Of a DNA stretch of 64,000 nt, positions 58,413 through 64,000 are shown one piece after another. The position numbers and the translations under genes were made by a program. The notes beneath the pieces are model-generated. The model searched no databases. It had not been told where the DNA came from and saw nothing but the letters and a program-made list of their open reading frames with translations. Positions within the stretch are counted from its first letter, which is position 1. Every line of letters begins with the position of its first letter. Source of the stretch: Melioribacteraceae bacterium (GTDB lineage Bacteria; Bacteroidota; Ignavibacteria; Ignavibacteriales; Melioribacteraceae). Location: NCBI GenBank assembly GCA_021739765.1, contig JAIPBD010000015.1, forward strand, positions 57,767 to 121,766. The letters are read 5' to 3'.

Positions 58413-58825
58413 TTCCGTGGGTGTCATGGTCATACCAGCTATTCAAATAATCGTAACCATGACATAAACACAGCACCCAAACCGCGTCAGTGTTCAATCG
58501 GGATTTAATGTCACGGTATCAAATGCAAAGATGGATTCTAAGACCGCGCCAACATGGTAATGATGCAAAATTCAAGTTCCAGCGGAACGACATGTTTATA
58601 GAAACCATCAGAAACGAGCGAAAAAAGAGTTCCAGAGGAACGGCATGTGACCAACGCAAACATTTTCAACAATTTGAAATGCCACATGCCGCTTCTACGA
58701 AGCTCAATTTCAAATCCTAATAGCTATTCTATAAACATGTCGTGGCTCTGCCACTTTTTGATTTTGTGCAATATGTAATTCGTAGCATAACAATTCGATT
58801 TTTAATTTACTCAATAATTATGCAG
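58413..58825. repeat. Structured repeat copy R1 (modules A, B and C)
   Basis: A 413-bp full copy. Hairpin A: TGTCATGGT (58422-58430), 25-nt loop, ACCATGACA (58456-58464). Hairpin B: TGTCACGGT (58509-58517), 25-nt loop, degraded right arm ACCGCGCCA (58543-58551). Module C (58561-58825): outer inverted arms of 17 bp (58587-58603 with 58727-58743), inner arms CGGCATGTG (58641-58649) and CACATGCCG (58683-58691), GTTCC-N3-GGAAC at 58576-58588 and 58629-58641, and GTGGC-TCT-GCCAC-TTTTT (58742-58759), which resembles a terminator. Confidence 0.9.
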
Positions 58826-58912
58826 TTCCGTGGGTGTCATGGTCATACCAGCTATTCAAATAATCGTAACCATGACACAAACAATTCTAAGACCGTGACA
58901 ACCTGGTAATAG
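58826..58912. repeat. Structured repeat copy R2 (A plus right half of B)
   Basis: Begins with TTCCGTGGG directly after R1. Hairpin A is perfect: GTGTCATGGT (58834-58843) pairs with ACCATGACAC (58869-58878). The left arm and most of the loop of B are deleted, leaving TTCTAAGACCGTGACA and the ACCTGGTAAT tail (58900-58909). Confidence 0.88.
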
Positions 58913-58958
58913 CTTATTTGTCAAACCATAATTCCACTTTTTTACCTATTTTTGCCAC

Positions 58959-59540
58959 ATGGAAATGGAGCTCGAAAAAATATTACTGAAAATTTTCGAA
59001 CGTTTCGCAAGTGTTTCAGAAAATTCATTCAAAGAAGTATTGGATCTTATTTCTTTGAAGACATATCCTCCGAATTATTATTTTGTTAATGAAGGCAAAC
59101 GTGAAGAAAGCGAATATTTTGTATTAGATGGAATTATTCGCAGTAATATTTTTACTAGAAAAGGTGAAGATGTAACTTTGTCCTTTTTTTATGAAAAATC
59201 AGTTTTGCCCCCTTGCATTTCACGCACGAACGATGGAATTTCCACTTTAAATTTTCAGTCACTCAGTGAAGTGAAAATAGCGATCATTAACGCAAACTTG
59301 TTTCGTGAATTGATGCAAAAGCATTTAGACTTATATCAATTTGGAAATATGGTTATGATGTCTGAACTTCAAATAAAAGCAAAAAAGGAGATTAGTTTTG
59401 CAACTCTCTCCGCGAAGGTAAGATTGGAAGAATTAAGATCGCAATTTCCTGGAATTGAGAATCTGATTCCCCATACCCACATTGCTTCATATCTCGGTAT
59501 TACACCCATCTCTCTTAGCCGACTTCGTAACAAACAGTAA
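58959..59540 (+). CDS. Crp/Fnr-family transcriptional regulator
   Basis: A 193-residue regulator with a cyclic-nucleotide-binding-type beta roll (about 20-125) and a C-terminal winged HTH, whose recognition part is THIASYLGITPISLSRLRNK. The ligand-binding residues of true cAMP-CRP are not evident, so the signal is unknown. It starts 46 nt after the R2 repeat. It may control the hydrolase genes that follow in the same direction. Confidence 0.9.
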   Translation: MEMELEKILLKIFERFASVSENSFKEVLDLISLKTYPPNYYFVNEGKREESEYFVLDGIIRSNIFTRKGEDVTLSFFYEKSVLPPCISRTNDGISTLNFQSLSEVKIAIINANLFRELMQKHLDLYQFGNMVMMSELQIKAKKEISFATLSAKVRLEELRSQFPGIENLIPHTHIASYLGITPISLSRLRNKQ

Positions 59541-59654
59541 AAGTCCTATTCTTATCAATTGTTAATAGAGTTGTTATCATTTGTTAATGGGGATTCATTT
59601 CTTGTCGTATAAATTTGATTAGAAATTTTTAATTAACGACATGAGAGGGACAAA

Positions 59655-60584
59655 ATGAAAAATCTATTATTATCACTCGCCGGTTTTCTTTTGAGTGTAA
59701 ATATTTATTCTCAGGAAAATTTTAAAATAGCTAGTGGTTCAGCAATTTTGGACACATGGATTTACCCAAAGACTAATTCCGAGACGGTGATTCTTCTTCA
59801 TGGTGGACCGGGTGTTCCCACACCAATGGATGAAATTAAACTTCTACTTAAAGATAATTATCAAGTAATTTATTTTCACCAACGCGGAGTCGGTGAATCA
59901 TTTGTTGAAGATGGAAATTATCAGCTTGACAGTTACCTCAATGATATCACAAATATCGCGGATTACTTTTCTGCAGAAAAATTTCATTTGTATGGACATT
60001 CGTGGGGAGGGCTTTATGCTCAGATTTATTCACAAGAAAATCCCAATCGAATACTAAGTCTTTTCCTCGCAAGTCCAGCTTCCGGCACCGGCTCGCAGTG
60101 GGATGAAACAGAGGACGAAGTTTTAAGTTTTAACGAATCCAAAACCAACTTTTGGCAATTTGTAAGCATGGGATACTTTTCACTCGTTGGAATGTTAGGA
60201 TTTGATAGTGGTTATCAATGTTTATTTAAGATTGTTCTAAACAATTACAATTTCGGGTTTGAAGTGCCGGAACAAGATTTGAGTTGGATGGAGAGTATTA
60301 AATCTGAACCAATTAATAAAACTAGATCAATTCTTTCTAATTACGATTTATTAAAAGATGCTCAGTCCGTGAACTTCCCGGTTACAATTACCTATGGGGA
60401 GAAAGATATTTATGGAAAAAGTAAAAAACATGTTATTGATCGATTTCCAAATGCAACGGTTTTAGAAATTCCTAATTCAGGTCACCTTCCAGCGATTCAT
60501 AATTTTGAAGGCTTTAGAAAAATCTTTGCTGCACATTTTAACATTTATGATTCGTTTCTATCGGCAAAGCTAACAGAGCAATAA
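59655..60584 (+). CDS. Secreted alpha/beta hydrolase
   Basis: A 309-residue alpha/beta hydrolase with a signal peptide (1-20, ending NIYSQ). The oxyanion segment is LLHGGPGVPTPMDE and the nucleophile is Ser116 in LYGHSWGGLY; the acid is probably in TYGEKDIYG and the His in NSGHLPAIHN. The HGGPG motif is that of the prolyl aminopeptidase (S33) group, so it could be a peptidase or an esterase. It shares its direction and a 32-nt spacing with the next hydrolase gene. Confidence 0.9.
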   Translation: MKNLLLSLAGFLLSVNIYSQENFKIASGSAILDTWIYPKTNSETVILLHGGPGVPTPMDEIKLLLKDNYQVIYFHQRGVGESFVEDGNYQLDSYLNDITNIADYFSAEKFHLYGHSWGGLYAQIYSQENPNRILSLFLASPASGTGSQWDETEDEVLSFNESKTNFWQFVSMGYFSLVGMLGFDSGYQCLFKIVLNNYNFGFEVPEQDLSWMESIKSEPINKTRSILSNYDLLKDAQSVNFPVTITYGEKDIYGKSKKHVIDRFPNATVLEIPNSGHLPAIHNFEGFRKIFAAHFNIYDSFLSAKLTEQ

Positions 60585-60616
60585 ACAATTTTATTTGTTG
60601 ATTATATGAGAATAAG

Positions 60617-61783
60617 ATGATGAATAAACCAGTTCCATTACTTCTTTTATTATTGATACTAAACGCTTGTTCAAGCAATGTTTTGGAGAGTAACATGACT
60701 CCTAAAGAAAGAGCAAATTTGGTGTTGGGCAATATGATCAAAAATTCAGAAACCCCAGGGGTGCAATATTCGATTTTCAATTCGGACAGTACAATTTTTG
60801 ATTTTTGCTCCGGTTACTCAATTCTTGAAAACAAAGTTTCGTTAAAACCGGAAAACACAATTAATGCATTTTCTGTTACCAAAACGTTCACGGCACTTGC
60901 GATACTTCAACTTGCAGAAAAAGGTTTGTTGGGATTAGATGACAACGTGCAAATATATCTCGATGATCTGCCTTATAAGGAGAATTTTACAATTCGCCAG
61001 CTTCTAAATCATACTGCGGGAATTCCAAATCCTCTTCCGATAAGCTGGATTCACCTTTATGAAGAACACCCGGATTTTAATTACGATTCGTTTGTGAAAA
61101 AGGTAATTCATGAGAATTGTGAATTGGATAACATACCTGGCGAAAAATTTGCCTATTCAAATGTCGGTTATTTGATACTTGGTGAAATAATTGAAAAAGT
61201 TTCTGGTGTTGATTATCGAACTTATATTGAGAAAAACATAATTGGCAAATTAGAATTAGATAAAGATTCGGATTTGAGTTTCAATATTTCGGATACGACA
61301 AATCACTCGGGTGGATATATCAAGAAGTGGAGCTTCATAAACTTTGGATTAAATTTCCTTATGGATAAAGACAAATATATGGGTGATTCGTATAATGGCT
61401 GGAATCGTTTCAAATATTTTTATATGAATGGTTATCCGTTTGGTGGTTTAATTGGAAATGCAAAAGGATTTAGGAAATATCTGCAATCCTTGTTGAGGGA
61501 AAATTCGACCATAATTGGAGAATCCAAAAAGAAGTTATTCGAGGCTCAGTTTACAAGCAATGGCGAACCACTCGAAATGGGCTTGAGCTGGTTTAAGGGA
61601 AAATTAGGGAGCGAAACCTACTTCGCGCATGCCGGCGGCGGCGGTGGATATTATTGTGAAATTAGAATTTATCCAGATCGAAAAATGGGAAGTGTGATTA
61701 TTTTTAATAAAACCGGTGTTTCAGATTCGAGAATTTTGGATGAAGTGGATAAGTTCTTCATTGAAATAATCTCCGTTGATTAA
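60617..61783 (+). CDS. Serine hydrolase of the beta-lactamase (class C-like) family, lipoprotein
   Basis: A 388-residue lipoprotein (LILNACSS, Cys18) of the serine beta-lactamase-like/penicillin-binding-protein fold. The catalytic motif SVTK (Ser86-Lys89) and the YSN motif (FAYSNVGYLILGE, about 172-174) are present, and HAGGGGGYY takes the place of KTG. Such proteins are usually esterases or D-amino-acid peptidases; beta-lactam resistance cannot be concluded. Its stop lies 46 nt before repeat copy R3. Confidence 0.9.
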   Translation: MMNKPVPLLLLLLILNACSSNVLESNMTPKERANLVLGNMIKNSETPGVQYSIFNSDSTIFDFCSGYSILENKVSLKPENTINAFSVTKTFTALAILQLAEKGLLGLDDNVQIYLDDLPYKENFTIRQLLNHTAGIPNPLPISWIHLYEEHPDFNYDSFVKKVIHENCELDNIPGEKFAYSNVGYLILGEIIEKVSGVDYRTYIEKNIIGKLELDKDSDLSFNISDTTNHSGGYIKKWSFINFGLNFLMDKDKYMGDSYNGWNRFKYFYMNGYPFGGLIGNAKGFRKYLQSLLRENSTIIGESKKKLFEAQFTSNGEPLEMGLSWFKGKLGSETYFAHAGGGGGYYCEIRIYPDRKMGSVIIFNKTGVSDSRILDEVDKFFIEIISVD

Positions 61784-61829
61784 TGACCCAAGTCTTCGGA
61801 TGACAGCAAACAAATATCAAACGGTTCCA

Positions 61830-61980
61830 TTCCGTGGGTGTCATGGTCATACCAACTATTCAAATAATCGTAACCATGACACAAGCAGAGCACTAAAACT
61901 GTTGCGCTGTTCAATCGGGATATAATGTCACGGTATCAAATTCAAAGATGAATTCTAAGACCGTGACAGCCTTGTATTAC
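61830..61980. repeat. Structured repeat copy R3 (A and B)
   Basis: Hairpin A: TGTCATGGT (61839-61847) with ACCATGACA (61873-61881), loop 25 nt. Hairpin B: TGTCACGGT (61926-61934) with ACCGTGACA (61960-61968), loop 25 nt. Left arms of A and B are 87 nt apart, as in R1, R5 and R6. No C module follows. Confidence 0.92.
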
Positions 61981-62050
61981 CCCGCTCAGCGCTATGCCCC
62001 ATTCCCTCTGCTTTACACTTAACGCTCCACGCTCTACGCTAATCCACTCA

Positions 62051-62140
62051 GAGCACCCAAACTGCTTCAGAGTTCAATCGAGAATTAGTGTCACGGTATC
62101 AAATTGTAAAGGTGAATCCTAAGACCGTGACAATCTTATA
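62051..62140. repeat. Structured repeat copy R4 (B only)
   Basis: Starts at GAGCACCCAAACTG, the linker between A and B, and contains hairpin B: TGTCACGGT (62089-62097) with ACCGTGACA (62124-62132); the loop is 26 nt. Module A is absent. Confidence 0.88.
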
Positions 62141-62186
62141 TGCGAAAAAGGCGTCCGCTTAATAGACCTGTTACATTTGCATTTGA

Positions 62187-62543
62187 TTACATTAAATCAA
62201 AGACTGATTTCAATGCTCGATCTATTTCAATAATTTTATTTTCTGATAATTGACCACGGATTTTAACTAATCTATATTTATAATCTATTGGTCTAGTTTG
62301 AAGGCAATCGGCGATGGATTTCTTGGTGAGTCCGTTTTCTTTTGAAGGTTCTAAAAAAATGTTAGTATGAATTTGAGCTTTTTTCTCGTTCCAACCGGTT
62401 ATTGGAACAACTTGAATTACTGGAACCATTTGATTGTAAACATCATTGGTAACAACAACACAGGGTCTTATCTTTCCGGTTTCAGAACCTTTTACCGGAT
62501 TTAAATCTATATCAATAACCATCCCTCTTTTAATTGATTTCAT
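62187..62543 (-). CDS. MazF/PemK-type mRNA interferase toxin
   Basis: A 118-residue toxin of the MazF/PemK family. The typical opening is KRGMVIDIDLNPVKGSETGK followed by IRPCVVVTND, with VVPITG in the middle and SIADCLQTRPIDYKYRL near the C-terminus. MazF toxins cut mRNA at short motifs, and inhibition by the partner keeps them silent. The start overlaps the antitoxin stop by 4 nt. The pair is flanked by repeat copies R4 and R5. Confidence 0.95.
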   Translation of the reverse strand: MKSIKRGMVIDIDLNPVKGSETGKIRPCVVVTNDVYNQMVPVIQVVPITGWNEKKAQIHTNIFLEPSKENGLTKKSIADCLQTRPIDYKYRLVKIRGQLSENKIIEIDRALKSVFDLM

Positions 62544-62773
62544 TTAGGCCAATCCTCAATTGCCGAGTTTGTTAAATCTCTTAATTCTGAATCTTCTTTA
62601 TAAATCTCGGCATACAGTTTAGCTGACTTTGCCAACTTTTGTTTCTCTATCGATTTAATAAAATCATCAATAGCAGAACGAACCAATGAACTTTTATCTT
62701 TGAAGCCGAGTTCTTGATATTTGTTCAATATTTTTATGTGGTTCTCATCAAAACTTATTTTTGTTTGTTGCAT
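62540..62773 (-). CDS. Ribbon-helix-helix antitoxin
   Basis: A 77-residue protein with an N-terminal ribbon-helix-helix fold (QTKISFDENHIKILNKYQEL, then KSSLVRSAIDDFIKSI) and a flexible, acidic C-terminal part ending AIEDWPK that should wrap the toxin. It lies directly upstream of the mazF-like gene with a 4-nt overlap, the classic order. It probably also represses its own promoter. Confidence 0.9.
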   Translation of the reverse strand: MQQTKISFDENHIKILNKYQELGFKDKSSLVRSAIDDFIKSIEKQKLAKSAKLYAEIYKEDSELRDLTNSAIEDWPK

Positions 62774-62949
62774 TTTAACCTCTGATAGCTCCTATATTAG
62801 TTCTTGTTTATAGCCCCAATATAAGAGCCTCAATTTAAATTTTCAACCCATTCTATTGCAAATATTACTACTAAATAACCCGACCTACTTCCGGGATATA
62901 GGAGAAGCAATTGCTGGCGTTATTTCTTCTTTTATGATCGGTTTTATCC

Positions 62950-63309
62950 TTCCGTGGGTGTCATGGTCAAAATAGCTATTCAAATAATAGTAACCATGAC
63001 ACAAACAGAGCACCCAAACTGCTCCAGAGTTCAATCGAGAATTAGTGTCACGGTATCAAATTCTAAGATGGATTCTACGACCGTGACAACATGGTAATGA
63101 TGCAAAATTCAAGTTGCAGCGGAACGACATGTTTATAGAAACCATCAGAAACGAGCGAAAAAAGAGTTCCAGCGGAACGGGATGTGACCGACGCAAACAT
63201 TTTCAACAATTTGAAATGCCACATATGCCGCTTCTACGAAGCTCAATTCCTAATCCTAATAGCTAATCTATAAACATTTCGTGGCTCTGCCACTTTTTGA
63301 TTTTGGGCA
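62950..63309. repeat. Structured repeat copy R5 (A, B and a C module with an internal deletion)
   Basis: Hairpin A: TGTCATGGT (62959-62967) with ACCATGACA (62993-63001), loop 25 nt. Hairpin B: TGTCACGGT (63046-63054) with ACCGTGACA (63080-63088), loop 25 nt. Module C (about 63099-63309) lacks the last 53 nt found in R1 and R6, so the copy is 360 bp long. Confidence 0.92.
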
Positions 63310-63722
63310 ATCCGTGGGTGTCATGGTCATACCAGCAATTCAAATAATCGTAACCATGACACAAACACAGCGCCCAAACCGCGTCAGTGTTCAACCGGGA
63401 TTTAATGTCATGGTATCAAATTCAAAGATGGGTTCTAAGACCGTGACAACCTGGTAATGATGCAAAATTCAAGTTCCAGCGGAACGACATGTTTATAGAA
63501 ACCATCAGAAACGAGCGAAAAAAGAGTTCCAGCGGAACGGCATGTGACCAACGCAAACATTTTCAAGAATTTGAAATGCCACATGCCGCTTCTACGAAGC
63601 TCAATTCCTAATCCTAATAGCTATTCTATAAACATGTCGTGGCTCTGCCACTTTTTGATTTTGTGCAATATGTAATCTGTTGCATAACAATTCGATTTTG
63701 AATTTGCTTAATAATTATGCAG
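63310..63722. repeat. Structured repeat copy R6 (full, 413 bp)
   Basis: The same length and order as R1. Hairpin A: TGTCATGGT (63319-63327) with ACCATGACA (63353-63361). Hairpin B: TGTCATGGT (63406-63414) with ACCGTGACA (63440-63448), where the C in the left arm became T, giving a T-G pair that is still compatible in RNA. A full C module follows (63459-63722). Confidence 0.92.
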
Positions 63723-63842
63723 TTCCGTGGGTGTGATGGTCATAATAGCTATTCAAATAATCGTAACCATGACACAAACAATCGAGAAATAGTGTCACGG
63801 TATCAAATGCAAAAATGGGTTCTAAGACCGTGACAGCCTTGT
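63723..63842. repeat. Structured repeat copy R7 (A and B, shortened linker)
   Basis: Hairpin A: TGTGATGGT (63732-63740, one mismatch) with ACCATGACA (63766-63774). Hairpin B: TGTCACGGT (63793-63801) with ACCGTGACA (63827-63835). The A-to-B spacing is 61 instead of 87 nt, because 26 nt of the linker are deleted. Confidence 0.9.
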
Positions 63843-63865
63843 ATTCCCTTTTGGGTTGTCATTAT

Positions 63866-63919
63866 AAAAAGTTCAACTTTTCTAATCCCGTTCTTATTCT
63901 TCAAAAGTTGAACTTTTTT
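63866..63919. terminator. Strong hairpin with A/T tracts
   Basis: A perfect 16-bp stem, AAAAAGTTCAACTTTT (63866-63881) with AAAAGTTGAACTTTTT (63903-63918), has a 21-nt loop and a trailing T. It sits between repeat copies R7 and R8 with no gene next to it, so it may be the end of a lost or off-window transcript. Confidence 0.6.
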
Positions 63920-63945
63920 GAAACTGTTCCACATAAAGTTCTTTT

Positions 63946-64000
63946 TTCCGTGGGCGTCATGGTCATACCAGCTATTCAAATAATCGTAACCATGACACAA
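63946..64000. repeat. Structured repeat copy R8 (continues beyond the window)
   Basis: Starts TTCCGTGGGCG. Hairpin A: TGTCATGGT is preceded by GC instead of GT; left arm 63955-63963, right arm ACCATGACA 63989-63997, loop 25 nt. The window ends before module B. Confidence 0.85.

Follow-up and report, generated by a model that had tools for sequence, protein, structure and literature searches.

A palindrome family that probably forms part of attC sites in an integrase-less integron-type array of a Melioribacteraceae bacterium

We analysed a 64,000-nt stretch of the genome of a Melioribacteraceae bacterium (assembly GCA_021739765.1, contig JAIPBD010000015.1, positions 57,767 to 121,766; hereafter the window), in which two related intergenic hairpins, A and B, recur over the last 5.6 kb, often joined in a unit termed A+B. 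The analysis makes it likely that A and B belong to a lineage-specific family of palindromes of about 45 nt, which is now part of the attC sites of an integron cassette array without an integrase. The observations are the complementarity between the start and the R'' box of eight units, the attC right ends, the recurrent junction of A+B with a module termed R2, the single hairpins elsewhere in the genome, and searches that found no integrase.

Results

Hairpins and modules in the window

Seven A hairpins (starting at 58413, 58826, 61830, 62950, 63310/63311, 63723 and 63946) and six B hairpins (58493, 61910, 62073, 63030, 63390 and 63779) were detected between 58413 and 64000, all 13 on the forward strand, and a profile search of the whole window detected none before 58413. 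The pattern TGTCAYGGT-N20..30-ACCRTGACA gave 10 exact matches in the window versus none in each of 100 dinucleotide shuffles, so the seven A and six B hairpins counted in an earlier note were recovered at a frequency far above chance. The loop is 25 nt in all seven A and in five of six B hairpins, and 26 nt in the B hairpin at 62089‒62132, as described in that note. Our listing also agreed with its further observations, namely, a difference of one pair between the arms (T-A in A, C-G in B), T opposite G in one B stem (63406‒63448), and a degraded right arm in the first B hairpin (58493‒58559). The copies A7 (TGTGATGGT) and A8 (CGTCATGGT) carry one arm mismatch apiece, and a half-B lies at 58884‒58908. 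The features of this region, which ends together with contig C15, are as follows.

58413‒58559, forward: A+B unit 1 (A at 58413‒58470; B at 58493‒58559, right arm degraded)
58560‒58772, forward: R1 repeat (about 213 nt); repeats of this family surround the Y1 transposase gene at C9:498
58826‒58908, forward: A hairpin fused to the right half of B (internal deletion)
58959‒59540, forward: gene between copies, cyclic nucleotide (cNMP)-binding domain PF00027, below the Pfam cut-off
59655‒60584, forward: alpha/beta hydrolase gene between copies (PF00561)
60617‒61783, forward: gene between copies, beta-lactamase-fold serine hydrolase family (PF00144)
61830‒61976, forward: complete A+B unit
62049‒62137, forward: B hairpin without A, loop of 26 nt
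62170‒62879, reverse: possible gene cassette with a PemK toxin gene (62187‒62543) and a small upstream gene (62540‒62773)
62863‒62949, reverse: module L, a conserved attC right-hand block at the cassette start
62950‒63096, forward: A+B unit directly against module L
63097‒63310, forward: R1 repeat between two A+B units
63311‒63456, forward: A+B unit, T opposite G in the B stem
63457‒63669, forward: R1 repeat
63723‒63843, forward: A+B unit with a 26-nt deletion between the hairpins
63946‒64000, forward: A hairpin at the contig end

All-against-all comparison of the clusters in this genome delimited modules with sharp ends, namely, L (about 85 nt), A+B (147 nt), R1 (about 213 nt) and R2 (about 115 nt). 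Their order on contig C13 is L-A+B-(R1-A+B)-R2; module L adjoins A+B three times on C13 and also on C33, and the R1 family sits behind A+B units in the window. The genes between copies encode PemK, ParE/Phd, YafQ/RelB, PIN, two glyoxalase-superfamily proteins, a histidine kinase and an Mrr-like nuclease, and further ones have no Pfam match. The type II toxin‒antitoxin (TA) genes among them are PemK, ParE/Phd, YafQ/RelB, PIN and, on C6, BrnT with a CopG/BrnA antitoxin. The small gene upstream of pemK has no Pfam match and is a candidate antitoxin by position only. At the start of C6, an IS110-family transposase in two open pieces (L097:1197‒2258) lies beside the BrnT unit and a unit whose open reading frame (ORF) has no Pfam match. 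One protein has a C-terminal motif that may point to Ignavibacteria. Some copies of A+B are themselves open over about 34 codons, yet indels of 1 nt and 26 nt break the frame, and a coding sequence was rejected.

Distribution of the family

Followed beyond the window, as the earlier note had proposed, the exact palindrome pattern was recovered at 33 places in this genome and at none in 58 relatives, among which there was no second genome of this genus. With 40 of 44 candidates scored, BLAST recovered the A+B unit of about 147 nt, in full or in part, 29 times in the genome, on C1, C33 and the ends of C6, C13, C15 and C18. Judged by the better-scoring strand, the orientation was single within each of the C13, C15, C33, C6-end and C1:325‒327k clusters, while C18 carries one unit. 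A covariance model built from 32 hairpins gave 110 matches at E ≤ 1, with both palindrome strands counted and 150 of 7146 candidates scored. At E ≤ 0.01 there were 70 unique hairpin places in 20 sources, chosen because they had matches; 41 of these places lie in the clusters on C6, C13, C15, C18 and C33, and 29 lie elsewhere, including 12 at C1:321‒327k. Hairpins on C4, C6, C8, C14 and C30 sit between ordinary genes. In the relatives, the model gave one weak match (E 0.0016), a lone hairpin with altered arms, under strict filters and with 104 candidates scored per genome; barring this match, the family appears so far to be known from this genome only.

Pattern scanning of genome contigs for the B type gave four isolated matches, possibly with this genome's own records left out, and four viral contigs matched in one common sequence context unlike A+B. 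Because the C6, C13, C15 and C18 clusters reach or nearly reach contig ends, with C6 and C15 breaking inside or at an A hairpin, the length of the array is probably underestimated.

Related hairpins were also observed in other settings. A YoeB/DUF2683 pair (L016:5912‒7162, C1:93.9‒95.2 kb) lies between two inverted B hairpins. Related palindromes occur in L025 (4641‒7626, partly in steps of about 206 nt), L018, L129 and L131, in some of which the left arm is broken by a CCCGATGCTTCGGG hairpin. B-like hairpins at L017:1408‒2127 and 7215‒7425 follow steps of about 165‒169 nt, and most of them have C opposite A at stem position 6.

Stem structure and covariation

Genome-wide, the stem position that differs between A and B is occupied by C-G, T-A or A-T, as well as by G-U and many mismatches, and position 6 is unpaired in 14 of the 29 hairpins outside the five clusters. 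Both-side changes affect the following of the ten stem pairs: the foot pair, position 6 (C-G, T-A or A-T) and position 9 (T-A or C-G). Alignment cells with a both-side change numbered 25 versus 11.3 in shuffles, and none of 500 shuffles reached 25; a larger hairpin set, in an alignment fitted to the covariance model and containing both strands of many places, gave 71 versus 39.5. Neither the number of pairs changed on both sides (reached by 60 and 455 of 500 shuffles) nor the number of pair types (400 and 422 of 500) exceeded the shuffles. The hairpin structure is thus kept, and the covariation is real but small, with modest independent evidence. The selection on structure proposed earlier was partly supported, by the conserved hairpin, the near-fixed loop and some compensatory change, but the independent changes are few, and a palindromic duplex binding site would yield the same signal. 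The arms without covariation and freely varying loops that the earlier note associated with accidental inheritance were not what we observed, since loop length keeps close to 25 nt and covariation is present in the stem.

Cassette-like units and attC sites

On the strand opposite to the hairpins, several units start with G|TTAGCTGC, G|TTATAAGC or G|TTAGGGTG, and the reverse complement of the start ends the unit just before R2. Integron cassettes show this same relation between R'' and R'. R2 follows directly after R'' in three C13 units, in the Phd/ParE unit of C33 and in the L097:2634‒3197 unit of C6. Beyond GTT/AAC, the pairing of a start with its own R'' extends over 9 nt in the last C13 unit, 6 in the glyoxalase unit (which has AGC where AAC is expected), 7 in YafQ, 5 in C33 ParE, 7 in the C1 348-aa unit, 5 in C18, 8 in C6 BrnT, 5 in L097:2634‒3197 and 1 in PemK. 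The 72 mismatched combinations of these nine first-scored units gave a mean of 1.6 nt and a maximum of 4 nt, and none of 100,000 permutations reached their total.

By motif and complementarity, the genome contains two or more attC sites that bear AAC/GTT R boxes. The canonical one, of 177 nt, lies on C1 (L017:6388‒6565) and has a right end like those found near IntI in relatives; similar attC-like right ends occur on C6 and C13. Free folding of the C1 site does not select the R/L stem, and CCGATT/AATCGG was noted by eye only.

The three complete attC intervals of C13 measure 352, 709 and 711 nt and enclose one, two and two A+B units, respectively. Six sites, three on each of C13 and C33, share a like junction between A+B and R2. 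On C6, a weak A-like match (L097:3467‒3513, 19.1 bits, E 0.058) lies near the attC that follows the L097:2634‒3197 unit. The alternative that R2-A+B-L forms a gene-less cassette was provisionally set aside by eye, since the neighbouring units would then lose their attC.

Integrase here and in relatives

With the integron integrase model TIGR02249, 10 pieces of this genome matched at E ≤ 1e-5, but all stayed below the cut-off (the best at 81 bits), and none was found at a threshold of 1e-40; control genomes also matched below the cut-off (14 of 14). A canonical integron with its integrase was rejected. In the relatives (G001‒G058), the cut-off was exceeded in 24 of 58. Right ends of the form AACG(C/T)C|GTTA were present in five of seven integrase stretches of relatives (L107, L110, L111, L112 and L113), and none was found by this pattern in L108 and L109. 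The nearest upstream TAAC lies about 50 to 257 nt from these right ends, a distance not verified as attC length, and a folded R''-L''-L'-R' stem with extrahelical bases was seen in L112.

Transposase and terminal repeats

PF01797, the family of RAYT-like Y1 transposases, is represented at three places in the genome, two of them with an internal stop. One gene (L034, C9:498‒842) lies amid many copies of the R1 family. At these loci, the A/B covariance model found nothing in L034 and L036 and gave 14.5 bits (E 0.82) in L035, where BLAST with A+B gave its only match, of 21 nt. In the repetitive extragenic palindrome (REP)/RAYT system, GTAG stands at the foot of the hairpin on its 5' side, and none was seen by eye in an alignment of 19 units. 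A RAYT-driven REP was rejected, as the PF01797 gene is surrounded by another repeat and A/B has no convincing match there. An imperfect terminal inverted repeat (14 of 16) was seen by eye in a C33 copy and, likewise imperfect, in variants on C5. No target-site duplication was seen by eye. The sequence CAAGGCTGTCAYGG occurs at 27 places with up to one mismatch; inspection by eye, without a Pfam run, found no transposase among the ORFs of the two pairs looked at.

Discussion

These observations can be arranged as a regular unit on the strand opposite to the hairpins, which would read G|TT-gene-R''(..AAC)-R2-[B-A, or A+B-R1-A+B]-L-next G|TT. This would place A+B inside the variable terminal structure of attC sites that are unusually long. 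A+B may have arisen as a non-autonomous insert like a REP or a miniature inverted-repeat transposable element (MITE), entered an ancestral attC, and been copied with the attC family while an integrase was present. An insert in this terminal part does not displace the R boxes, which would explain why it was tolerated.

Several points weigh against this reading. Of 17 candidate units, eight fit the start/R'' relation (runs of 5‒9 nt), while nine fail, with a best run of 4 nt. The PemK unit of the window fails with 1 nt; it starts with GTTATTTAG at 62879, and its end box CAAATGTAAC has no clear complementarity to that start. All eight later-tested units fail: the C13 sigma-factor unit with 4 nt, a C1 unit and C6 DUF1801 with 3, C33 PIN and C33 Mrr_cat with 2, and C1 243-aa, C33 histidine kinase and C33 8910‒9431 with 1. 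The permutation figure is too favourable, because the relation was already known when the boxes of the nine first-scored units were picked by eye, and because a search for this very relation had yielded the C1 and C6 BrnT units. Exact 10-mer start/R'' pairs numbered four in 22.9 kb of array strand (two in 5.4 kb on C13, one in 4.3 kb on C6, one in 4.0 kb on C1, none in 7.7 kb on C33 and none in 1.5 kb on C18) versus 0.56 per 10 kb in the control, so that position carries more of the case than the counts do. The attC sites were assigned by motif and complementarity and not by the standard attC covariance model or IntegronFinder. In the window, only one A+B adjoins an attC block, and most copies, including those at 58413, 58826 and 61830, lie in no recognised attC, as do those at C1:325‒327k. 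The free fold of the 352-nt site lacks the R/L stem, and for A+B we found neither a target-site duplication nor a mobilising enzyme nor an empty site.

Other explanations account for parts of these data. A and B might be the native terminal part of the attC of this lineage, selected by the integrase for single-strand folding, with the copies elsewhere being stray attC pieces. The like A+B‒R2 junction in six attC sites and the stem compensation would agree with this, as would the attC sites of relatives, which can be long (one in L112 spans about 210 nt and has an internal hairpin), and the weak A-like match on C6. However, the canonical C1 attC and the IntI-bearing relatives have no A/B match (104 candidates scored per genome), and hairpins sit between ordinary genes on C4, C6, C8, C14 and C30, with no R boxes noted in the flanking 120 nt on each side in an unsystematic look; we consider this explanation unlikely. 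We give slightly less weight to ordinary REP/MITE-like repeats piling up in a repeat-rich region, with an incidental integron context. Sharp ends, the mosaic with R1, the imperfect terminal inverted repeat of the C33 copy, the single copies elsewhere and the absence of most window copies from any recognised attC all fit such repeats. They would less readily account for the single orientation per main cluster, the recurrence at the same place in attC intervals, or the concentration in arrays, where five clusters hold 41 of the 70 unique places and C1:321‒327k another 12, although these loci were chosen for matches. Of the mobile REP/MITE-like element suggested by the earlier note, the repeat character with sharp ends is supported, but not a link to RAYT.

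Two further explanations concern the palindrome itself. Binding sites in duplex DNA for a dimeric regulator or nucleoid protein would likewise show two 9-nt half-sites at near-fixed spacing with symmetric covariation, but the 43-nt span, tandem placement and degraded or half copies are atypical of operators in general, and such a role seems highly improbable. Least probable of all is an RNA element (a processing site, terminator or small RNA). One unit has an RNA fold z-score of ‒4.2, and among 11 terminator-like sites, one lies between A and B (63026‒63006, reverse strand) and one in module L. However, DNA folds of both strands score alike, copies occur on either strand relative to genes, no T-run follows the arms on either strand in the 11 window hairpins checked, and no Rfam family reached its gathering score, which leaves the processed RNA of the earlier note without a known family. 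The terminator scan is blind to 25-nt loops, so it is the absent T-runs and not its outcome that count against a terminator.

We compared the integrase-less array carrying A+B with described systems. An integron cassette array without an integrase is termed a CALIN (cluster of attC sites lacking integron-integrases), according to the part of PMC9024848 consulted. The array resembles a CALIN in its G|TT cassette starts, the R'' complementary to its own start in eight units, the TA cassettes, and the attC right end AACGCC|GTTA, which also occurs near IntI in relatives. It differs in that its attC intervals of 352‒711 nt contain repeat units, half of the candidate units lack matching boxes, gene orientation is mixed, and the array is split over several contigs. 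As far as the consulted part of PMC2727003 describes them, attC sites are 57‒142 nt long, and a variable terminal structure caps their stem. The conserved R boxes and variable terminal part of our sites are reminiscent of attC sites with a large terminal structure, such as the Vibrio cholerae repeat (VCR), but their interior holds a repeat also found elsewhere in the genome. The portion of PMC8946536 consulted reports equal recombination of sites with a large or a short terminal structure after delivery by conjugation, and poorer performance of long ones in replicative conditions. Compared with REP elements and their TnpAREP/RAYT, as portrayed in the consulted part of PMC8266576, A+B is similarly short, intergenic and composed of paired palindromes in a mosaic with other motifs; in contrast, this genome's Y1 transposase is associated with a different repeat, and no GTAG foot was seen.

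IS1111-attC elements and attC-associated group II introns are mobile elements that have settled in attC and carry an enzyme gene. A+B resembles them by location but has no enzyme gene. On dispersed palindromes inside attC, no title was found in the literature, which was judged mostly from titles. An integrase-less integron-type array and a REP/MITE-like repeat are each ordinary in kind and unusual in combination.

It is a long shot, yet conceivable, that dispersed palindromes were recruited as attC building material, that a hairpin-flanked gene, as in the YoeB/DUF2683 pair, is a proto-cassette, and that the long A+B attC sites were recombined by an integrase. If true, the proto-cassette reading would bear on the origin of cassettes and of lineage-specific attC families, and if the long sites are recombinogenic, the size limits of attC would be wider than described. 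These putative attC sites are several times longer than the published range, and their interior is made up of a repeat family from the genome that carries them, which bears on how attC sites turn lineage-specific. As a caution, integron arrays may go unrecognised where palindromes cluster at contig ends.

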